This document shows positions 51,962 through 64,000 of a stretch of DNA of 64,000 nt, one piece after another. The notes under the pieces are model-generated. The model made no database searches. It saw only the letters and a list, made by a program, of their open reading frames with translations, and was not told the origin of the DNA. Source of the DNA: Cyanobacteria bacterium FACHB-471 (GTDB lineage: Bacteria > Cyanobacteriota > Cyanobacteriia > Elainellales > Elainellaceae); contig JACJOC010000017.1 in assembly GCA_014695345.1 (NCBI GenBank), positions 62,001 through 126,000 of the forward strand, read 5' to 3'. Both the position numbers and the translations under genes were made by a program. Numbering within the stretch: the stretch's first letter is position 1; each line of letters starts with the position of its first letter.

Positions 51962-52720
51962 TTACTGCGCGTTCAGTGCAGTTGTTAGCTGCTGACGGAT
52001 TTGAGGGGGCAGCAACACTCGGTTAACGGCATGAACCACGCCATTACTAGCCTGAATATCTGCCCGAATCACACTACCGTCATTCACTACGATGCGTTCA
52101 GGAGTAACGCGGACAGCAATGCCGCCGTTGAGGGTGGAGATTGCTCCCGTCTGAAGCTGGCTGGAAGTGAATTCGCCAGGAACGACGTGATAAGCCAAAA
52201 CTTGTCTCAGCAGGTTGCGGTTTTCGGGACGCAGCAGGAACTCAAGAGCACCATCGGGCAATGCTGCAAAGGCAGTGTCAGTGGGCGCAAAGATAGTAAC
52301 GGGGCCACCAGCATTTTGCAGTAGAGGCGCTACATCTGCTGCTGCTACAGCTTGTGCCAGGGTGTTAAAGGAGTTACCGCTAGGAGCTTGTTGGGTAGAA
52401 ACCTGTTGCAGCAACTCAGTAAGGCTAGCGTTGCTAGAAGTTGGAGGCGTAGCAGCATCGCGGGCAGGGGCAGGCTGGGCAGCAGGGGGTTCTGTTGCAG
52501 GTGTAGTTGCGTCGGGGCCGGGGGTTGTGGTTGGTGGTGTTGTACTCGGTTCCGTTGTGCCAGGGGTGCCCGCTCCAGGAGTGGTCGGACCCGGTGCAGT
52601 AGGAGCAGGTGCGGATTGGGTTTGGGCGAGCAGAGGAGCGCTGGCTGCGGCTGCGACTCCGGCAGCACCTAGCAGAATGGCGATCGCCCTCACGCTTCGG
52701 GAATAAAAAGTAACTTGCAT
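51962..52720 (-). CDS. exported fasciclin (FAS1) domain protein
   Basis: 252 residues. The signal peptide (VRAIAILLGAAGVAAAASAP, cut near residue 32) is followed by a Pro/Thr/Ala-rich spacer (about 33-92) and one FAS1 domain (about 95-250: FNTLAQAVAAADV, VTIFAPTDTAFAALP, LAYHVVPGE, SNGVVHAVNRVLLPP). FAS1 domains mediate adhesion at cell surfaces. It follows bcsA on the same strand after 237 bp that contain a stem-loop, so it is probably a separate unit, though a role in the same extracellular matrix is plausible. Confidence 0.9.
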   Translation of the reverse strand: MQVTFYSRSVRAIAILLGAAGVAAAASAPLLAQTQSAPAPTAPGPTTPGAGTPGTTEPSTTPPTTTPGPDATTPATEPPAAQPAPARDAATPPTSSNASLTELLQQVSTQQAPSGNSFNTLAQAVAAADVAPLLQNAGGPVTIFAPTDTAFAALPDGALEFLLRPENRNLLRQVLAYHVVPGEFTSSQLQTGAISTLNGGIAVRVTPERIVVNDGSVIRADIQASNGVVHAVNRVLLPPQIRQQLTTALNAQ

Positions 52721-52896
52721 CAGCTTAAAACTTTGTTACAACAACGCCTTTAGGCTAAAACAAACTGCCTTTTATGCGATCGCACAAAAGGCGTAGCCGG
52801 AAAAAATAACTACAGACAGGTGACAAACCTGACTATCGGTCAAGTTTGGTAGTCCCTCATCAAGAGCCAGAATTTATAACGCTTCTCCAAACAGAT

Positions 52897-52957: not shown

Positions 52958-55609
52958 CTACTCTAGCGATCGCAGCAAATCTCGAATTTTAGTGCGCTGC
53001 TGTTGATTGAGGGATTCTGGAAAAGATAGTTCTATTGCAATTCGTAAAGGCGGGGTGTCATAGTCTGAGCTAATTTCTGAGTCAGCACCAGGAGGTTGAA
53101 ATGCGACAACGGGTACCAAATTCAGAATTTCAACAGATTGCACTTGGGCTAACAGACTTTGGGGTGCAAAATCGTTAGTGTCGCTGCTGATCAGCAATCC
53201 AATCATCGGTTTGGTTTGCTCCATCGTTTCCAGATGTAGCAGGTCTCCTTCTAGCTCCAGCCGAATGTCTCGCGTACCCATTTCGGTGACTTTGGCAGTG
53301 TAGGATGTGCCTTCCCAGTCCTCCCAGAAAAGCTGAGCGTCAGCCCGGACTTGCTTGCGTACCTTCATCCCAACTTCGGGGCGAAACTCACGGTATACCC
53401 GCTGTATGCTGGTGGCAATGAATTTGAGCGACTGAATTGGGTTGTCTGCCTCATTTCGCTTCTGGGAATACCATTCTTTTACGTCTGAGTAGATGACGAC
53501 TGAGAGGTCATCCAGTTGAGTTTGGCTGACGTTGACAAAGTCGAGGGCGAGTAGAGTTTGCAGTTTGTCAGTGGCGATCGCTCGAATAATATGGGCATCT
53601 AGCAGCACCCGCGCCCCATAATCCCCAATCAGCTCGATCCGAATTTCATCAGGGACGTTGGGCCAAACATCTAACAGCACTTGCGCTCCAGTTTCACTTA
53701 CGTTTACCGTTTCGCCGACCCAACTTTGGTTATCGCCGTGAATCACGACGGCTAATCGGCGGGGTAGACGGTGAGCGCGGCGCAGTTGGGGTTGCTCAAA
53801 GGCAACCAGGCAGGCTGCCATCACCAGCAGCAGGTTAAATACACACCAGAGCGTGTTGATCAGCACAGCTTGCGTATCTTGCGGACTCAGCACCAGCCAA
53901 AACGGAACGGCGACCAGCGACGCAGCGGTAATTGCGCCTAGAATCACCAGGTAACGCACAGAATCCAGGTCAAAGCTGCGCTCCTCAACAGTTAGCCCTT
54001 TGTCGGTCACGTTGAATTTGCCCAGCTTGGGGTTGATTAGCGCCAGCAGGGTAACGATGCCTGCCTGAAAAGACATGGCAAACTCGTAAATCTCGTTCCA
54101 GAAGGAAAAGCGAACGTGTTTGTAGGGAATGTGGTTTGCCTGCATCGACAAAACGATGTGGGGCAGGGCATAGAACAGGGTTTCCAATCCCAAACCTTTA
54201 ACAGAGTTGATGCCGAAGAGGAGGAACAGGTTGGGGGCGATCGCATACATCAAACGCGGAAAGCCAAAAAAGAAGTGTGATGTCGCGCTGAAATAGCACA
54301 CCCGCTGCGCCAACCGCAGATTTAACTTGCGGTTGACCATTGGATTCTCGATTCGCAAAATTTGCGCCATTCCTCGTGCCCAGCGCACCTGCTGACCGAC
54401 GTAGGAGGAGAATTTTTCAGGTGCCAGTCCTGCCACCATGATTTTGTCGTAATAGACGGTTTCATAGCCCTGGGAGTGTAGCCGCAGGGAGGTGTGGCAG
54501 TCTTCAGTCACTGTTTCGGTAGCGATACCGCCAATGCCGAGCACGTATTCCCGCCGAATCACGGCTGCTGAACCGCAAAAGAAAGCCGCATTCCAAAAAT
54601 CGTTACCTTTTTGCAGCACTTTATAGAACAGTTCGTTGCCGACGGGTACTCGTCCCTCGGTCATCAGGTTGCGCTCAAACGGGTCAGGATTGTAGAACCA
54701 GTGTGGTGTCTGCACCATCGCCACTTTGGGGTCAACGATGAAGAAGCCGACGGTTTCTTGCAAAAAGCTGCGAACCGGAATGTGGTCACAGTCCAAAATC
54801 AGTACCAGATCCCCATCGGTTCTCGGCAAGGCGGTGTTGATGTTTCCGGCTTTGGCGTGGTCGTTGTTATCGCGTGTGAGCAGGGTGCAGCCCAGTTCAT
54901 CGCACATTTGACGAAGCTGTTCGCGGCGATCGCGATACTTTTCTGCCCGACCGTCATCCAGAATGTAAACGTGCTTTTTGTCGTAAGGATAATCAGTTGC
55001 CAGTGCGCCTAAAGCCGTTTTGCGGACAATCTCGACTTCTTCGTTGTAAGTAGGAATGTAGATATCAACCTTGAGCCAATCATCGTGGGGTAAGGTCGAT
55101 AGATCGATGGGTTGGCGCTCACGAATCTTCAAAGTCTGAAAATAGGCCAGCATGAGGGTGGCGATCGCATACATCTCTGCCGCATACAGCAACAGACAAA
55201 ATATGCCATTCACTACACCATCAAAGTTGAGCGTATAGCTGGTGCGGTAATAGAAATACCGCATCGTCGTCACCACGCTCAGCACAATTAGAAATAGGTG
55301 CAGATACTCGCTGCTGTGAGTGTCACTGCGCTGGTCTTCCATTCGCAGTACCGATCGCCCCACAAAAATTAGCAGCACTGCAATTAAGCCCTGCTGCCAA
55401 ATGCTGGGGCGCACCGTTATCAGCGGCAGACACATCATCAACAGTGACCCTAGCAGGATCACCAACTGCCGTCGGTTTAGCCACTTCAGCACGTGGTCAA
55501 ACGTGTGCGGCAGGCGATCGACCAGCAGCGTTGCCAGCCATTCTGAGTTAGAAGGCACTCCTTCGCGAATCCACCGTCGCTGCGTTCGAGTCTTAGAAGG
55601 ACTAACCAT
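52958..55609 (-). CDS. bcsA: cellulose synthase catalytic subunit
   Basis: Processive family-2 glycosyltransferase that polymerises UDP-glucose and moves the glucan through the inner membrane. Of 883 residues, 1-160 include about four hydrophobic helices. The GT domain has DDG (218-220), DCD (273-275), TED (368-370) and QQVRW (406-410), all the catalytic elements. More helices span about 435-605. A PilZ domain follows with RRAHR (610-614) and NVSETG (636-641), the c-di-GMP site. A further PilZ-like stretch without the full motif covers about 740-830. The start directly abuts the bcsB stop. The UDP-forming cellulose assignment rests on linkage to BcsB and GH8 as well as on the motifs. Confidence 0.95.
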   Translation of the reverse strand: MVSPSKTRTQRRWIREGVPSNSEWLATLLVDRLPHTFDHVLKWLNRRQLVILLGSLLMMCLPLITVRPSIWQQGLIAVLLIFVGRSVLRMEDQRSDTHSSEYLHLFLIVLSVVTTMRYFYYRTSYTLNFDGVVNGIFCLLLYAAEMYAIATLMLAYFQTLKIRERQPIDLSTLPHDDWLKVDIYIPTYNEEVEIVRKTALGALATDYPYDKKHVYILDDGRAEKYRDRREQLRQMCDELGCTLLTRDNNDHAKAGNINTALPRTDGDLVLILDCDHIPVRSFLQETVGFFIVDPKVAMVQTPHWFYNPDPFERNLMTEGRVPVGNELFYKVLQKGNDFWNAAFFCGSAAVIRREYVLGIGGIATETVTEDCHTSLRLHSQGYETVYYDKIMVAGLAPEKFSSYVGQQVRWARGMAQILRIENPMVNRKLNLRLAQRVCYFSATSHFFFGFPRLMYAIAPNLFLLFGINSVKGLGLETLFYALPHIVLSMQANHIPYKHVRFSFWNEIYEFAMSFQAGIVTLLALINPKLGKFNVTDKGLTVEERSFDLDSVRYLVILGAITAASLVAVPFWLVLSPQDTQAVLINTLWCVFNLLLVMAACLVAFEQPQLRRAHRLPRRLAVVIHGDNQSWVGETVNVSETGAQVLLDVWPNVPDEIRIELIGDYGARVLLDAHIIRAIATDKLQTLLALDFVNVSQTQLDDLSVVIYSDVKEWYSQKRNEADNPIQSLKFIATSIQRVYREFRPEVGMKVRKQVRADAQLFWEDWEGTSYTAKVTEMGTRDIRLELEGDLLHLETMEQTKPMIGLLISSDTNDFAPQSLLAQVQSVEILNLVPVVAFQPPGADSEISSDYDTPPLRIAIELSFPESLNQQQRTKIRDLLRSLE

Positions 55610-58006
55610 TTATTCCTGCCCCGTGAGCCGCTTTAAGTAGAGTTGAATCACCCCATACAGCACCAGTGACGCTGCCACGATGCCGGGAGCCAATACAAAC
55701 CAGTTGCCGCGCAGCACCGCCGCAATTCGGCTAGAAAGGTTAGCCGATGCAAGCTGCCGTTGAGAAGACTGCTGCAAAAATTCCAACGAGTAAGCGTTGG
55801 GGTCGTAGGGTGAAGGGTCAGGTTCGTTTGCCGCAATCAGCACTGTGTCACCCTCTAGCTGAAAGAACAGATTGTCCTGGCTGATCAGGTCGCGCACCTG
55901 CTGCAAGCCTTCATCAGTTTGGGCACTCAGCGCCAGCATGACCCGCTCTTGATTCCAGGGTGAAATGATTTGCTTGACCAATCCTTCCTGGTCGGGCAGG
56001 GTTTGAATCTGCTTTTGCCCCCAGTGACGGGAAAATAGATCTCGCAGGGCAAAGCCATCTCCTTGCTCAAACGCTTCGGGCAATGGAAACTGTGCTTCGG
56101 TGCCGATCGCAATAATGTGGCGGCTGTCTCGCTGCTCAACTGGCAACTTGCTAGCGCGGTAGACATCCAACTTCACCGATTCAGCACGGCTGAGTCTGCC
56201 TAGACGCTCACTCACCTCTAGCAGCAGCAGCAGGTCAGACTGAGCTGGGTTTTCGGGCATGGCGATCGCCGTACTCGACAAATCCTGCGGCGCTGCAAAC
56301 GGGTAACCTGCCCGCAACAGTTCCAGGTCAGGCAGCCGCACCACCTGTTCGCGATTCAGCTTAAATTCGGTGTCGGAGTGAATCGTACTCCAAAGCTGCT
56401 GGTCAGTCACACGGCTACAGGAACGGCGTTCTCGCGGATCGAGCCGAAAATTCACTTGGATTCGCGAATTTGGCTTAATTCGGTCTTCGGGTAGCGTTAC
56501 TTTCAGCGTTTCGCGATCGCCACCACTCACTGAAGTGAGGCGTTTTCCAGTGATCACAACGTTGTCAAGTTCCACTTCCACCAGGGAGGTCAGCGGATTG
56601 ATCTGCGGCCCGTAGCTATAGCGCAGCGTCATCGTGTTGCCCGGCGAAAACTGGTCATCGGGCAGTGCCCGAAAGTCCAATTCCAGGCTGGGGGAATGGG
56701 AACCCCGCACCGTTACATCACCATACGCTTGCTCGTCAAAGGTACGCAGGTCGCTCAGCTTAAAGGAATTTTCTAGTGGCAAATAGCCTTGCCATGCACG
56801 CGGATCAGGCGTTTCGACCTGATCGATTTGATCAACGATCACAAGATTACCCGTGCCGATCTGCCGATCTCCTGGCTGCACCAGGAATTGAACTGCCTTG
56901 GCGACTCCTTCAGCCCCGTTGCCCGTCGCAACCAGCACGGGAGCTGCCCCATCAGGAGTCGTGGTCAGCATCAGTAAACCAACATCGCCCGGAAAAGGCT
57001 GCTGTTCTGCATCTAAAAATCGACCACTGCCCAAAGACAGCGGCAAATCCAGAGATGACAGATCAGGCTGAATGGCAGGAGTTCCAATCACGATTAGCCG
57101 TTCACGTCCTGCCACTTGATCGATCGCTTCAACAATCCGCGTGTCTAGCGGACGAAATTCTGCTAGCCGCCCCAGAGAGGTGTGCAGGCGACTGGTGGCG
57201 GTCAACCAGGTTTCATCAATCTCGTTGGGCTGAAGGTAGGTGACCTGATTGGGTTCCAGGCTGAGGTCGTCAAATACCGGATAGGGATAGCGGTGAAAGT
57301 CGAGGGCGATCGCCTTCGGCTGGAAGTTAAACACCAGCTTGGAATCGGGCAGAATCTCCGTCCACAGCGACGGGTCAAATGGGTCTTGGGTACAAGTTGG
57401 TGAATTGTTTTGCAGCGCTGCCAGCACCACCTCGTTGTAATCCTTAATGGCTCCTGGCGGCACATCAAACACGACATTGCCAATCTCGCCCTGAGGTTTG
57501 TTCAGCGGCACGCTGCCAATGCTCGTACCGTTGACCAACACCGTCAGATTTGAGCGAGTGGCATAGAGCGCTGCCGAGTGCCGAAACCGCAGCGAAATCT
57601 GCACGGATTTGGGTTCCCAGTTACGCGGACGGGTAAACCGCAGCCGCCGCTCATCGTAAATGCCCTCCATCCGTAACCGATTTCCCACAATGGGGCTGCG
57701 GTTAAACTCCAGTACATATTGTCCAGCCGCTTCAGGGGCAACGGTAGGCGGAGCAGCGGGAGGATCAGGCAGGGCAAATTCAGAGCGGGACAGATCCGGC
57801 TGGGGCGCTCCTGACTCCTCTGTAGGAATTGGAGCCTCAGTCTGAGCGGGTGCCGGGAGAATAGCCCACCCCAAAAGCAAGCCGCAACTGAGCAGCAGCA
57901 TTCCAGCAAAAGCCCAGAGGGGGCGATCGCGTCGATGGGAAGAGGAGCGCGATCGGCGTCGAGAAGATTGACGGTTAGGGGTTGGTGAATGTAGGTCGTG
58001 TTTCAT
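55610..58006 (-). CDS. bcsB: cellulose synthase periplasmic subunit
   Basis: BcsB partners BcsA, guides the glucan through the periplasm and anchors the complex with a C-terminal helix. Of 798 residues, an N-terminal membrane segment (about 30-55) and Pro-rich spacer lead to the carbohydrate-binding/flavodoxin-like modules (LEFNRSPIVGNRLRMEGI, VLVNGTSIGSVPL, NSPTCTQDPFDPSLWTEI, NSRIQVNFRL). A C-terminal hydrophobic helix (WFVLAPGIVAASLVLYGVIQLYLK) ends it. Its ATG overlaps the GH8 stop by four bases (ATGA), so translation is coupled. Confidence 0.93.
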   Translation of the reverse strand: MKHDLHSPTPNRQSSRRRSRSSSHRRDRPLWAFAGMLLLSCGLLLGWAILPAPAQTEAPIPTEESGAPQPDLSRSEFALPDPPAAPPTVAPEAAGQYVLEFNRSPIVGNRLRMEGIYDERRLRFTRPRNWEPKSVQISLRFRHSAALYATRSNLTVLVNGTSIGSVPLNKPQGEIGNVVFDVPPGAIKDYNEVVLAALQNNSPTCTQDPFDPSLWTEILPDSKLVFNFQPKAIALDFHRYPYPVFDDLSLEPNQVTYLQPNEIDETWLTATSRLHTSLGRLAEFRPLDTRIVEAIDQVAGRERLIVIGTPAIQPDLSSLDLPLSLGSGRFLDAEQQPFPGDVGLLMLTTTPDGAAPVLVATGNGAEGVAKAVQFLVQPGDRQIGTGNLVIVDQIDQVETPDPRAWQGYLPLENSFKLSDLRTFDEQAYGDVTVRGSHSPSLELDFRALPDDQFSPGNTMTLRYSYGPQINPLTSLVEVELDNVVITGKRLTSVSGGDRETLKVTLPEDRIKPNSRIQVNFRLDPRERRSCSRVTDQQLWSTIHSDTEFKLNREQVVRLPDLELLRAGYPFAAPQDLSSTAIAMPENPAQSDLLLLLEVSERLGRLSRAESVKLDVYRASKLPVEQRDSRHIIAIGTEAQFPLPEAFEQGDGFALRDLFSRHWGQKQIQTLPDQEGLVKQIISPWNQERVMLALSAQTDEGLQQVRDLISQDNLFFQLEGDTVLIAANEPDPSPYDPNAYSLEFLQQSSQRQLASANLSSRIAAVLRGNWFVLAPGIVAASLVLYGVIQLYLKRLTGQE

Positions 58007-59364
58007 GAACTAGATGCTTGCATCAACTGTGCAGAAGGAGAGACAGGAGGTAGTAACCCAAACCAGGCAAGATTTTGCGTGTAATAGGCGGAACTGTTGT
58101 CCCAAAAGCCTTGCCGATATTGCGGCACTAACTTTTGCTGGTAGATTTGCTCAGCGATTTGCGGTTCCGTTAAAGCAAACGCTGGGTAAAGCGTGGCGTA
58201 CTGGGCTGTCGCTTCGTAGTCGGCAATCGCCCTTCCCTGCATGTCAAATCGGGCAGGAATCTGCTGTCCGTCCTGCCAAAACCGTTCTAAGTACGCCAAA
58301 TGTTGGCGCAGAAATTGCTCTGCCTGCGGTTCTTGAAACCAGGCTGCATCTAGCGCCACTCGCCACCACACCCGATAAGCATCAAAGCCGTACTGACTTT
58401 GCAGGTTAGAATCGCTGACTGGGGAGAGTTCTGCCGTTTGCGGATTGAGCGAAATCCAGTCACTCGGCAACCCAACCGCCGAAACATCAGACGACGCTTC
58501 TAAAAGCTGGTAGCTGCTGTCTACCAGGCTCATCCAGTCGTGTTCTGGGTCAACCTGAGCGAACAGGCGAAAGGCATAAGGCGCAAAGTAAGAGGGGTTG
58601 AGAATCAGCGTATCTGGCTGGCTCCAAAATGCTTCAGCGGGTCCGGGCAGCAACACCCGACCGTTAGCTAACTCGGCAGTTGAATAGTTCCAAATGTCGG
58701 TTAGTTTAACTTTTGCTAACTCCAAATATTCTGGGCAACTCCAGCGACGAGCCGCAAAAATCAGGGCGGTAGCGGCATCAATATCGGCATCGCTGGCAAA
58801 GTTGGCATCGATCGTCGTCCATTGCCCAGTGGAATTGCGACCCCATTTCCAGGCCCAAAGCTGATCGAGGCGATCGCTCTCCCCCTTGCGAATCAAATTT
58901 TGCTCTGCCCAGTTCAGCGTTTTCACAAAGGTGCCAGGGTCGTTGATCAGCACCGCTCGCAGCATCGCGTAGGCTTGTCCCTCAGAGGTGGAGCGATCGC
59001 CATCTTCTCGGTCAATCACTCGCCCATCTTCCTGAATAAATCGCTGGCGGTAAGCAATCCAGCTTTCCTGCAGCAGCGGCAAATTTTCAGCCCGAAACGG
59101 TAACGATAGTGTATTTGGCGTACTTGCCTGAATGTCAGAAGGCTGTTGCCCTACTACATCCTGCAAACACACGGGTACTTCTGCCTGAGACGGCTTCCAG
59201 CAGCCTGCTGTCAGACTCAAGAGCAGCGCCATTAGACCGAGGAGCGATCGCCGCGCAGCTTTAGTGCGCCACCGTCCTGTTAGCCCCAACAACACTTGAG
59301 AGACAGTTGACAAAATTCGCAGCGCAGCTAGAAATGGGGGTTGGAAGGAAAAATACAGCAACAT
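58003..59364 (-). CDS. bcsZ: glycoside hydrolase family 8 lipoprotein (BcsZ-like endoglucanase)
   Basis: Endo-beta-1,4-glucanase of the cellulose operon. STSEGQAYAMLRAVL contains the catalytic acid Glu128, followed by LWAWKWG and DIDAATALIFAA, all standard in GH8/BcsZ. The signal ends in SLTAGC (Cys55), a lipobox, so the enzyme is probably membrane-tethered, unlike the soluble periplasmic BcsZ of E. coli. About 38 residues precede the lipoprotein signal, so the true start may be later than 59364 (a TTG near residue 27 is possible). BcsZ trims glucan and is needed for normal polymer output. Confidence 0.9.
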   Translation of the reverse strand: MLLYFSFQPPFLAALRILSTVSQVLLGLTGRWRTKAARRSLLGLMALLLSLTAGCWKPSQAEVPVCLQDVVGQQPSDIQASTPNTLSLPFRAENLPLLQESWIAYRQRFIQEDGRVIDREDGDRSTSEGQAYAMLRAVLINDPGTFVKTLNWAEQNLIRKGESDRLDQLWAWKWGRNSTGQWTTIDANFASDADIDAATALIFAARRWSCPEYLELAKVKLTDIWNYSTAELANGRVLLPGPAEAFWSQPDTLILNPSYFAPYAFRLFAQVDPEHDWMSLVDSSYQLLEASSDVSAVGLPSDWISLNPQTAELSPVSDSNLQSQYGFDAYRVWWRVALDAAWFQEPQAEQFLRQHLAYLERFWQDGQQIPARFDMQGRAIADYEATAQYATLYPAFALTEPQIAEQIYQQKLVPQYRQGFWDNSSAYYTQNLAWFGLLPPVSPSAQLMQASSS

Positions 59365-59454
59365 TCTGCAAAACCTGTCAAGTTTAAGAAGGGCTGGAGG
59401 CTAAGGGCTGGGGGCTAGGGGTTAAGAATTTTCATCCTTTATCCCTCGTCCTTC

Positions 59455-61782
59455 CTAATACCGCTCCCACGCAGGCTGAAATCCTCGTCGTCGCATCAGA
59501 TCTAACTGAATCTGCTCAATTCGGTCGTCCAGGTCAGCGTCGGGATTGCCTGCTACCAGACGCTCTTGCTGCAAGCGTCGGAGCTGTTGAAGTGCTGCCA
59601 TTGGACGATCTTGGGCAACGCTGAGTTCCGCCAAGATGCGGCGCGTTTCCCAATCATTTGGCTTAAGAGTCAGCACTCTTGCATAAAGCATGGTTGCCTC
59701 CGTGTAACGCTGCTGTTGAAACCGAATTCCACCTAAAGCAGCTAGAGCATCGGTGTTTTCGGGTTGGCGATTTAGCACTTCACGGTAAGCCTGACTAGCC
59801 ACATCTAAATTGCCTAAAACCTGAGCCAGTTCGCCCTGGAGGAAATAGCCGTTGATGTCATTGGGATTGCGCGACAGAACCCGATCAACTTGTGCTTGAG
59901 CCCGTTCGGGATCGCGCAGTGCCAAGACCTGCACCAGCCGACGGTTTACGCCAATGTCATCGGGGTTAACGGTTAGCAGCGCCTCATAAAGCCGTTCTCG
60001 CTGTGGACTTGGCGGCAAAGCTCCTACCAGGCTAAACAGCTCTGGTGGCGCATCGGTAGCGGGACGGGCCGCCAGCCAGCGCTCCAGTACGGCTTCGGCT
60101 TCCGATTGGGAAATTTGCTCAATCTGGTAAGCCAGACTGGCTCGACCAAGTTGAGTTTGCAGGTCATTGGGATTTCTGGCTAGAAGCTGGTCGTAGAATG
60201 CTAGGGCTTCCTCTGGACGATTTTGCACCAACCGAATGCCCGCCAAACCGCGCAGGGAAGCAGTGAGAATTTGGTCTTCAGGATTGCGGGCAATCAGTGC
60301 CTCATAGCGGCTGGCACTGGCTTCCAGGTTTCCTTCGCGCCGCTCGATGTCTGCTAACAGCAATTCTGCTGCCAGATCTTGAGAACCAACGGAAGTCGCA
60401 CCATAAGCAGTTAGGGCTTCCCTTGCCGCTGCATAGTTGCCTTGCTGAATCAAAATTTGGGCAACTCGGAAGTTTAAGAAGGGAACGTCCACATTGGACT
60501 GAAGCAAGTTCTGGTAAATCGGCAAGAGTTCTAGGTCGGGCGGGTCGAGGCGAATTAGAGACTGGGCGATCGCCCGTCTCTCAATCTCCCCATCACTCGC
60601 CTGTAAAACAGACTGAAGCTCTTGCTGAAGCTGAGCGCTAGAAATTTCTCCAAGCTGCCGCTCCAACACCGATCGCTTCACCCGCAGGCTCAGGTTATTG
60701 GGCTGTTGAGTGGCAAGCTGTTGATAGAGCCGCAGTGCCTCTGCCTGAGAGGTGGGTGACTCGCTCAAGACATCTGCCACCTCAGTTACCAGCCCCGGAG
60801 ATGGATTGCTCGTTTGCTGAAGCACTCGACGGTAAAGGGCGATCGCCTCTTCATAAAGCTGAGCATTGCCCGACTCTCTACCAATCGTGCTGAGTGCCCG
60901 TGCTAGCGGCAAGGTTGCGCCTTCGGCGTCGCGTAACGGTTCCAGGGTTGCCAGAGCCGCTTCTGGGTTTTGGTTGGCTTGATGGGCGATCGCCAGTGCT
61001 GCCCGAATCTGAATTGCCGTTGCGTCCAGGCGATCAAACTGTCGTAGCCGGGATTCTAATACCCGTACTGCCTCAGCCGGATTTCCCGTTTCCTGAAGCG
61101 TCGACGCATAGGCTGTAATAGCCGTATTCGGAATCGTTTCCCCGGTTGCCTGATAGCGTTGAAATAGCGCCAACCCCTGGCTGTAGTTGCCGCTGTAGGT
61201 GTAGATTTGAGCCGCGCCCAAAATCGTCTCGGCTGAGGGATTGTTTGCTAGCGCAATTTGGTAGTCTGCTAGCGATTCGCTGTAACGTCCCTGGTAGCCC
61301 AACAGCAGCGCCCGCTGCGCTCTGGCGTTTTGGTTATTCGGGTCAAGGTTGAGTAGGGTGGTCAGCGCTTCGATGCCGCCTGTCTGCCACTCTGAACGAT
61401 AGCCGCCCAGCAGTCCCACAGCTTCTAGGGCGCGGCGGTTTGTTGGGTCTTGAGTTAAAACCTGACGGTAGGTATTCCAAGCATTTTCATCCTGTCCGGC
61501 TCGCTGATAAGCGATCGCCAATCCCAGTCTTGCGTCCAGTGAATCAGGATAGCGCTGCAAAGCTTGTCGAAAGGCGGCGATCGCATCATCGACCCAGCCT
61601 TGCTCTAGCAGCGTATAGCCCCGACTCACTGCCGCAGGCACCGTCTGCGCCTGCACTGCCAAAATTCCTAAACCAATCGGAGACAACAACATTCCCGCCG
61701 ATGTCCCCAGTAGCATCAACCCTAGTAGCGTGTGTTGCAGCACCTGACTACCCCGTATGAGAAATTCCATGCGTCGCCTCAT
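59455..61782 (-). CDS. bcsC: BcsC-like TPR protein without barrel domain
   Basis: 775 residues: a signal or anchor segment (about 14-45), then tetratricopeptide repeats over almost the whole length (for example GYTLLEQGWVDDAIAAFRQAL, DENAWNTYRQVLTQDP, RYSESLADYQIAL). This is the layout of the periplasmic half of BcsC, which binds peptidoglycan and links BcsAB to the outer membrane. The C-terminal beta-barrel of BcsC is missing; the protein stops at FQPAWERY. The barrel function is probably taken over by the preceding gene, whose stop overlaps this start (TAATG). GGAGG 8 nt upstream supports the ATG. Confidence 0.85.
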   Translation of the reverse strand: MRRRMEFLIRGSQVLQHTLLGLMLLGTSAGMLLSPIGLGILAVQAQTVPAAVSRGYTLLEQGWVDDAIAAFRQALQRYPDSLDARLGLAIAYQRAGQDENAWNTYRQVLTQDPTNRRALEAVGLLGGYRSEWQTGGIEALTTLLNLDPNNQNARAQRALLLGYQGRYSESLADYQIALANNPSAETILGAAQIYTYSGNYSQGLALFQRYQATGETIPNTAITAYASTLQETGNPAEAVRVLESRLRQFDRLDATAIQIRAALAIAHQANQNPEAALATLEPLRDAEGATLPLARALSTIGRESGNAQLYEEAIALYRRVLQQTSNPSPGLVTEVADVLSESPTSQAEALRLYQQLATQQPNNLSLRVKRSVLERQLGEISSAQLQQELQSVLQASDGEIERRAIAQSLIRLDPPDLELLPIYQNLLQSNVDVPFLNFRVAQILIQQGNYAAAREALTAYGATSVGSQDLAAELLLADIERREGNLEASASRYEALIARNPEDQILTASLRGLAGIRLVQNRPEEALAFYDQLLARNPNDLQTQLGRASLAYQIEQISQSEAEAVLERWLAARPATDAPPELFSLVGALPPSPQRERLYEALLTVNPDDIGVNRRLVQVLALRDPERAQAQVDRVLSRNPNDINGYFLQGELAQVLGNLDVASQAYREVLNRQPENTDALAALGGIRFQQQRYTEATMLYARVLTLKPNDWETRRILAELSVAQDRPMAALQQLRRLQQERLVAGNPDADLDDRIEQIQLDLMRRRGFQPAWERY

Positions 61783-64000
61783 TAAAACTGCCTCCCTAGT
61801 CCTGTTACATCCAGGTCAGCTCGAACCCGGAATCCGAACACAGTCTCTGAGAATTCATTTCGCTGTTGAATCGTTGCCCCCGCTCGCAGGTTGGGCGAAA
61901 GTCGGAAGTCGTAAAATAATTCCAGGACATCAGGCGACTCGTCGTCGCGATCGCGACGCAGTTCATCGTTTGACAAACCCCGACCGTAGGCTAGTCCGAG
62001 CCGATCGTCTGGCATGAACAAGTCCAGCAGATTTATCCCAAAGCTGTAAGTGTTGGCGCTTTCGTCTACATCCTGGTTGGTGTAGTGTCCATAGCGGGCA
62101 AACAGCCCCAGGTTGATACCGGGAATGAAATATTCGGCGTTGAGTCCAAAGGCTTCTTCGCGATCGCCCTCCTGCACGCCAAATGCGTCACCGCGATCGA
62201 TGCCAAAAATCTCTTCAAAGCCGTCGCCGCTGCCCGGATCTTCTGCCGAAATGTAGGTGCCGCGCAAAATCAGATTGCCAGCCCGAAAACCCACTTCTCC
62301 AGCAAACGCATCCAGGGCAAATTCGCTCAGGTCACGATTGGAGGAAAAAACAGTAGCTCTCACGTCCACGTTATCGGTTGGGTTCCAGGTTGCCATTGCT
62401 CCAATCCGCGAAGACAACCCTGCCGCACTCAATGCCGGATTCGTTTGAAAGACTGGATTGAAGAAGTGAGTCACCACATCTTTGGCAAAACTGTTGCGGT
62501 CAAAGTAGGAGGTTAAATCCATTAACCCTGCTGTAAACCGCAGCCCCGACGTTCCAGGTGGCAAAAACGTAGCGTATAGCTCGTTCAGTTCCAGCCCAAA
62601 TCCGTCTGCGTTGCCAAATGCTTCACCGCCCGCCAGGTCTACCGTTGCGCCAAACAGCAAATTAGGACTGGAGGGATATAGCACCGTCGCTCGCGCCCGC
62701 GCCGAAGACTCATCGCCTTGCAGCACATATGCCCCCTGAAGCTGAATGTAGGGCGCACCCAGGACTAGCGCACTTCCAGACGTAGCGGCTTCATCCTCCG
62801 ACTCAGCCTGTCCAATAAGAATCGGATCAGGGGTTGATTCCTCAGCCACTTCAGATGAGGTTTGAACCAACTGCAACTCTGGTAGCGAAGCCAAATCAAC
62901 CTCGCTCAACTCATAGCAGTCCGCAGTGTCGCAATCCCACATCAGCGGTTGCCAGCCTGGTTCAGCTTCTGCCCCCGTCCAGGCGATCGTTTCCACTCCT
63001 GAATTCAGCGCAATCACAATCGGATCACGCACAGTTACACCAGGGGCGATCGCCTCAGATCCTAATAATTCCTCAGGTGTAAACTGATACTCTTCAACTT
63101 GAGCCAGCTCCGGCTCATCCAGAGCTATATTCGTATTCGGCTCACTCTCAGAGTTAAAAAATTCTGCCTCTAGCGAAGCCAAAATTCTCGTCAGCTCACC
63201 CGTTTCATTAGAAGATGAAGAAACTGAAACTGTTTCACTATCTGATGTAAAGAATTCCGTCTGTAACGCGGTCAAAACTTGTGACCAATCATTCGCCGTG
63301 CTATCTATTACGGAGGGGATACGCAAAGAAGTTGCTGCCGTCTCAGATATCTCCTCGGCACTGGCTTCTCCAAACTCTATAGCTTCAGCAGGGTCTGGTT
63401 CCGTGTGTTCTGGTTCAGAATAATCTGATTCAGTTTCAGTTCTTTCAACGTTGCTCGTCTTCGCACCCGTCTCCGCATCATCCGTCTCCGCATCAATGAA
63501 CTCAATGCTGAAGTGACGAATAGTTTCAGTGTGCAGCCTGCTCAGTTCAAGGGAAGTCGGGGATGCATCTACCGCTCCTGACTCCGCTTCTAACTGTGAC
63601 TGAGCCAACGAAAGGCTTTGAGAACTTTCCCCCGCTTCATCTTCTGCCCCGATGATTTGCTGCCCTTCGTCCAAAGGATCTACCAGGGGTGTCGATGATA
63701 CTGACTCAGCATGTAATGCTTCAGCCGACAGTACTTCAGCAGAGGATGCTTCAACCGATTCCGTTACGGCTTCGATTACCTGCAAGCTGCTTTGGGGCTC
63801 TTCGGACGGTTGGGTAGACGTAGCAGCAGTCACGCGAATAGAGGCTTCCTGCCAAGCGATCGCCTCTGAGTCGATTTCGGCAACAGGTTCCAGTTCACGA
63901 GAAGGAACTGCGGAGCGATCGCCAACCGATATATCAGCTTGCGCTGCGGCAGCCAGACTCGATTCCAGCAGCAACACGAAACTGCTGGCTAGAACAGCAC
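61782..64000 (-). CDS. outer-membrane beta-barrel (OprB-like) protein with long acidic N-terminal region, 5' end outside window
   Basis: First visible gene of the cellulose operon. The frame stays open to the right edge: codons ahead of 63977 read AVLASSF and join VLLLESSLAAAAQADIS, a signal peptide, so the start lies beyond the window. About 400 residues of Glu/Ser/Ala-rich low complexity (TETESDYSEPEHTEPDP) follow. Then comes a beta-barrel of about 330 residues (ALVLGAPYIQLQGAYVLQGD, GFGLELNELYATFLPP, SRIGAMATWNP, ELFYDFRLSPNLRAGATIQQ) ending in aromatic ...GLGRQF, as outer-membrane barrels do. It resembles carbohydrate porins of the OprB type, not the BcsC barrel. Inferred role: glucan exit pore. 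Confidence 0.8.
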   Translation of the reverse strand, partial: AVLASSFVLLLESSLAAAAQADISVGDRSAVPSRELEPVAEIDSEAIAWQEASIRVTAATSTQPSEEPQSSLQVIEAVTESVEASSAEVLSAEALHAESVSSTPLVDPLDEGQQIIGAEDEAGESSQSLSLAQSQLEAESGAVDASPTSLELSRLHTETIRHFSIEFIDAETDDAETGAKTSNVERTETESDYSEPEHTEPDPAEAIEFGEASAEEISETAATSLRIPSVIDSTANDWSQVLTALQTEFFTSDSETVSVSSSSNETGELTRILASLEAEFFNSESEPNTNIALDEPELAQVEEYQFTPEELLGSEAIAPGVTVRDPIVIALNSGVETIAWTGAEAEPGWQPLMWDCDTADCYELSEVDLASLPELQLVQTSSEVAEESTPDPILIGQAESEDEAATSGSALVLGAPYIQLQGAYVLQGDESSARARATVLYPSSPNLLFGATVDLAGGEAFGNADGFGLELNELYATFLPPGTSGLRFTAGLMDLTSYFDRNSFAKDVVTHFFNPVFQTNPALSAAGLSSRIGAMATWNPTDNVDVRATVFSSNRDLSEFALDAFAGEVGFRAGNLILRGTYISAEDPGSGDGFEEIFGIDRGDAFGVQEGDREEAFGLNAEYFIPGINLGLFARYGHYTNQDVDESANTYSFGINLLDLFMPDDRLGLAYGRGLSNDELRRDRDDESPDVLELFYDFRLSPNLRAGATIQQRNEFSETVFGFRVRADLDVTGLGRQF

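Follow-up and report, generated by a model that had tools for sequence, protein, structure and literature searches.

How cellulose passes through the outer membrane of cyanobacteria is an open question. In a study of the whole phylum, every strain lacked the BCSC_C domain and very few had BcsB (PMC4594306); another survey, with a different clustering, credited five strains with barrels of the BcsC type (PMC4365693); and a 2025 review states that cyanobacterial operons lack bcsB and that the TolC model for export awaits experimental confirmation (PMC12430437). The window analysed here, a stretch of 64,000 nucleotides from Cyanobacteria bacterium FACHB-471, carries a cluster that was recovered in about a quarter of the sampled cyanobacteria and that offers a testable answer. 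Since its parts match the functions of BcsC, its pore is of another family and the genome has no BcsC homologue to fill the slot, we put at roughly three in four the probability that it encodes a two-piece equivalent of BcsC, in which a porin of the OprB lineage would serve as the glucan exit. The barrel-TPR cluster is unmentioned in the openly available literature that we found, and priority is not certain.

All five components named in a first-pass annotation of the window (BcsA, BcsB, a GH8 enzyme, a 775-residue TPR-only protein and a separate outer-membrane barrel) were found on the minus strand, in a single run ordered barrel, TPR, GH8, bcsB and bcsA-PilZ. BcsA (52958..55609, 883 aa) scored 712.8 bits against the CelA equivalog TIGR03030, above its cut-off of 699.1, carried a PilZ c-di-GMP domain (Pfam, 4.9e-10) and showed legible catalytic and c-di-GMP motifs in its translation (DDG, DCD, TED, QQVRW, RRAHR and NVSETG). 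BcsB (55610..58006, minus strand) matched PF03170 at 1.1e-97 as well as solved BcsB chains and appeared by eye to have a C-terminal transmembrane-like helix, so that the locus contains both a BcsA with PilZ and a BcsB, as in a bcsAB operon. The GH8 endoglucanase (58003..59364, minus strand) matched PF01270 at 2.3e-43 and was BcsZ-like, with a match to NF008305 (3.5e-54) that lies under that model's cut-off. No HlyD family was matched by any of the five operon proteins, and BcsB was present, indicating that the operon is not of the XcsAB-TolC type: the XcsA/XcsB/TolC model of Thermosynechococcus vulcanus likewise describes cyanobacterial cellulose export without BcsC, but it invokes an HlyD-like adaptor and TolC and has no BcsB (PMC12430437), whereas BcsB, a TPR protein and an OprB-type porin are encoded here. 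A second copy of the cluster, with barrel, TPR, bcsB and bcsA and without GH8, was observed in the same genome (locus L032, G000:C73:154700-173900).

In E. coli and in the Komagataeibacter bcs operons, BcsC, whose gene accompanies those for BcsA, BcsB and BcsZ, joins a periplasmic TPR solenoid to an outer-membrane barrel of 16 strands. Here the two halves are two proteins from two genes, separate in 112 loci. The TPR protein (59455..61782, minus strand) matched Pfam TPR families, has no barrel of its own and, as judged by eye, starts with a Sec-type signal peptide; its profile aligned at 93% with the TPR region of BcsC from E. coli, although TPRs align easily. The barrel gene overlaps it by one base at 61782, stop on start, as had been annotated. 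One point is corrected, in that the window edge truncates the barrel gene: in the genome (locus L001) it runs on the minus strand from an ATG at window-equivalent 64124 to 61782, encodes 780 aa, and forms a barrel only in its last ~330 residues. By itself, such a split is no novelty, because the TPR protein and the barrel of alginate secretion, AlgK and AlgE, are already separate (PMC4594306). That system shares with the present one a scaffold and an outer-membrane barrel as separate proteins, but serves another synthase and polymer, and the barrel here belongs to OprB and not to Alginate_exp. AlgK is also a lipoprotein, unlike the TPR protein here with its Sec-type signal.

The family of the barrel was assessed by several comparisons. 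The barrel domain (61785..62774, minus strand; the last 330 aa, with 16 predicted strands) gave the protein a Pfam match to OprB (PF04966) of 36.9 bits, over a cut-off of 22.9 (1e-9 for the domain alone), and 22 of 32 barrel homologues matched the same family at E up to 1. Its AlphaFold2 model was a 16-strand barrel (pLDDT 90.6, pTM 0.86) with the porin fold expected of OprB, for which Foldseek returned OmpF-type porins, with P. putida OprB second (TM 0.65). By hhalign, the barrel aligned with an SLH-OprB porin of the same genome at 98.3% (E 1.2e-14), including the motif pair YFDRNSFAK/YIDRNSYAN, and with the E. coli BcsC barrel at only 0.5%. These results bear out the proposed resemblance to a carbohydrate porin. 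Searching PDB sequences with the barrel profile returned zero matches, and NCBIfam offered no informative name for it. The operon barrel is homologous to the cyanobacterial SLH-OprB porins and has a loop motif in common with them, but its family pairs with a TPR partner and lacks the SLH domain, which was found in the OprB porins at L072, L075 and L077 and was missing from both the operon barrel and that of L032. The part preceding the barrel (62775..64000 in the window, minus strand, continuing to a signal peptide and the ATG at 64124) is acidic and of low complexity; conservation is confined to the last ~330 residues, and the low-complexity region varies from ~100 to 600 residues among homologues.

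No match to BCSC_C (PF05420) was obtained in the barrel protein or elsewhere in the genome, and a genome search found no full-length BcsC. Matches to BCSC_C in seven of the 390 genomes sampled were dismissed as BcsC candidates, as they covered only ~65-100 of 336 positions at 19-26 bits. A BCSC_C barrel, a complete BcsC elsewhere and a lack of linkage between the barrel and TPR genes had been set in advance as the findings on which a split BcsC with a pore from another family could fail; all three were looked for and none appeared, and the split architecture is therefore well supported.

Porins of the OprB family have narrow pores and a known role in uptake, which counts against a glucan exit. 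The barrel might instead import the cello-oligosaccharides that GH8 sets free, or be a general porin for solutes whose gene accompanies the operon, with the glucan leaving elsewhere, for example through a TolC-type channel. OprB porins have indeed been described as carbohydrate uptake porins (PMC6528568), and a TolC-based model has been proposed for Thermosynechococcus (PMC12430437); the operon barrel, however, lacks the SLH domain of the other porins checked in its genome, and no alternative exit component was seen linked to the cluster. Together with the distribution data below, this makes such a role unlikely in our judgement.

Co-occurrence was surveyed in 390 cyanobacterial genomes of one class. 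BcsB was detected in 126 of them, in 107 at strong E-values, and the barrel family was strong in 111; both were present in 105 genomes, BcsB only in two, the barrel only in six and neither in 277. The eight discordant genomes were fragmented or incomplete assemblies. The association (p-value = 6e-85, computed with shared ancestry ignored) involved positive genomes from 12 families, and a barrel that almost never occurs without BcsB is not what a general porin would be expected to show. In contrast to the published picture, BcsB is strong in 107 of 390 genomes and nearly always accompanied by this pore. Barrel matches were bimodal (E < 1e-60 or > ~1e-11), and the weak ones, in other genomes, were taken to be general OprB porins and disregarded. 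Nineteen genomes without the barrel gave weak BcsB matches (E 1e-4 to 1e-18) and were likewise left out of the system count. A sample of the phylum yielded no barrel beyond the class, and in a search of 84,980 species cyanobacteria supplied all of the 80 best barrel relatives, the closest named ones among these 80 being Leptolyngbyaceae MAGs (95-96% identical).

The linkage was consistent in the fetched loci, which come from two sets with partial overlap. The gene following the barrel was a same-strand TPR gene in 112 of the 113 loci having a downstream gene, with a 4-base overlap in 54 loci and touching or overlapping ends in 72. The gene order recurred in more than 100 fetched loci, so that the five-gene arrangement is far more than chance. 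From the BcsB side, 110 of the 144 listed places had a same-strand barrel no more than 8 kb upstream, and many of the remainder lay on short contigs or were second copies; in L033, L038 and L043, BcsB and TPR had no adjoining barrel and the barrel was located elsewhere in those genomes. The barrel-TPR pair was intact in three Moorena loci (L104, L105 and L108) with no bcsBA in the stretch. Many loci contain GH8, as uptake of its products would suggest, but the gene was absent from 18 of 68 (about a quarter) and the pair was retained there, which ties the barrel to the TPR gene and not to GH8. The GH8-less loci did not form one clade in any of four trees. Barrel distances correlated best with TPR distances (r = 0.90), a value that includes the shared species tree and has no unrelated-gene control. 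The conserved pairing favours the barrel as the outer-membrane half of a split BcsC.

What the barrel would conduct is suggested by its most conserved segment, which lies between strands 5 and 6 at the position of the porin constriction loop L3 (62412..62516, minus strand; LTSYFDRNSFAKDVVTHFFNPVFQTNPALSAAGLS). Mean pairwise identity among 32 homologues was 0.77 in this loop vs 0.58 in the strands, and six aromatic residues were near-invariant. Since the topology places it between strands 5 and 6, the loop is predicted to fold into the pore. A loop at the constriction position, together with the long, variable, low-complexity N-terminal region (~100 to 600 residues), could also suit a structural outer-membrane anchor, with the N-terminus as a tether for the TPR protein and the barrel not a conduit. 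We regard this as very improbable, given that the segment most conserved is an aromatic-rich one at the constriction, which fits sugar passage better than anchoring.

The identity of the polymer was also considered. BcsA relatives can make other glucans, and one genome has both locus types, with and without GH8, so that another beta-glucan or a modified cellulose might leave through the same split exit. This seems quite improbable for a synthase that clears the equivalog threshold for cellulose synthases and has BcsB and a BcsZ-like GH8 encoded alongside it; in addition, cellulose has been reported in Scytonema sheaths (PMC12430437), and the cluster was complete in Scytonema loci L142, L151 and L153, though not from the same strain. 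We therefore take cellulose to be the probable product.

A candidate contact between the two halves was recognized at the C-terminus of the TPR protein, where a tail of 13 residues (MRRRGFQPAWERY; 59458..59496, minus strand) is its most conserved stretch (mean pairwise identity 0.84 vs 0.51 for residues 45-750). In E. coli BcsC the TPR C-terminus continues into the barrel (PMC11379886), and on this analogy it is a reasonable guess that the tail docks the TPR protein on its separate barrel.

Upstream of the barrel gene, 1066 bases separate it from its divergent neighbour gene. A lipoprotein gene of an undescribed family lies on the plus strand outside the window (L001:15191-15988, window-equivalent 65191-65988). 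Members have ~265 residues with an invariant cysteine, and the gene was divergent from and adjoining the barrel gene in 78 of the 101 loci with enough flank. It was present in 84 of 291 genomes, namely 84 of the 88 positive for barrel or BcsB and none of the 203 negatives, even when unlinked; in GH8-less loci it was often elsewhere in the genome. No Pfam family matched it, and Foldseek with its model (pLDDT 84.7) returned no significant relative. This distribution indicates that the family belongs to the same system, where it may act in pore assembly or anchoring. PelC of the PelBC exporter provides a parallel for a lipoprotein partner (PMC12141448), as a likeness only, with no homology claimed. 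In L064 (G351:C11:2848800-2867900), bcsB-bcsA was observed beside the lipoprotein gene, with TPR and barrel missing from the stretch, and in the same-genus genomes G162, G169 and G357 the barrel was ~28-29 kb away.

Taken together, c-di-GMP-responsive BcsA would polymerise UDP-glucose, and BcsB, judging from its family, would take over the chain. The soluble TPR solenoid may then guide the glucan through the periplasm, with the GH8 enzyme trimming it when needed, and the conserved tail would dock the solenoid on a 16-strand porin that is kin to cyanobacterial SLH-OprB but shows no detectable relation to the BcsC barrel. The glucan would leave through this porin, where the aromatic-rich loop could act as a sugar slide, and the mostly divergent lipoprotein would work in the same system, perhaps assembling or anchoring the pore. 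On balance, we lean towards the view that cyanobacteria evolved their own outer-membrane exit for cellulose independently of BcsC. One of their general SLH-OprB porins would have been recruited and have shed the SLH domain, and a free TPR solenoid and a new lipoprotein family would have become its partners, giving a distinct class of synthase-dependent secretion in about a quarter of the sampled species. If so, the missing exit pore is named along with an extra lipoprotein, a sugar porin can become a polymer exporter, and gene targets are available in cultured strains.

Some minor features were observed at the bcsA end of the operon. About 180 residues of BcsA past PilZ (window 52961-53503, minus strand) form a C-terminal extension with no Pfam match. 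A terminator-like stem-loop after bcsA (52767..52792, minus strand), with an 11-pair stem and a T-rich tail, may mark the operon end as a consensus match only, such matches being no more frequent than in shuffles. Just downstream of this site, a gene that by eye encodes a small secreted, fasciclin-like protein was located at window 51962-52720 on the minus strand.
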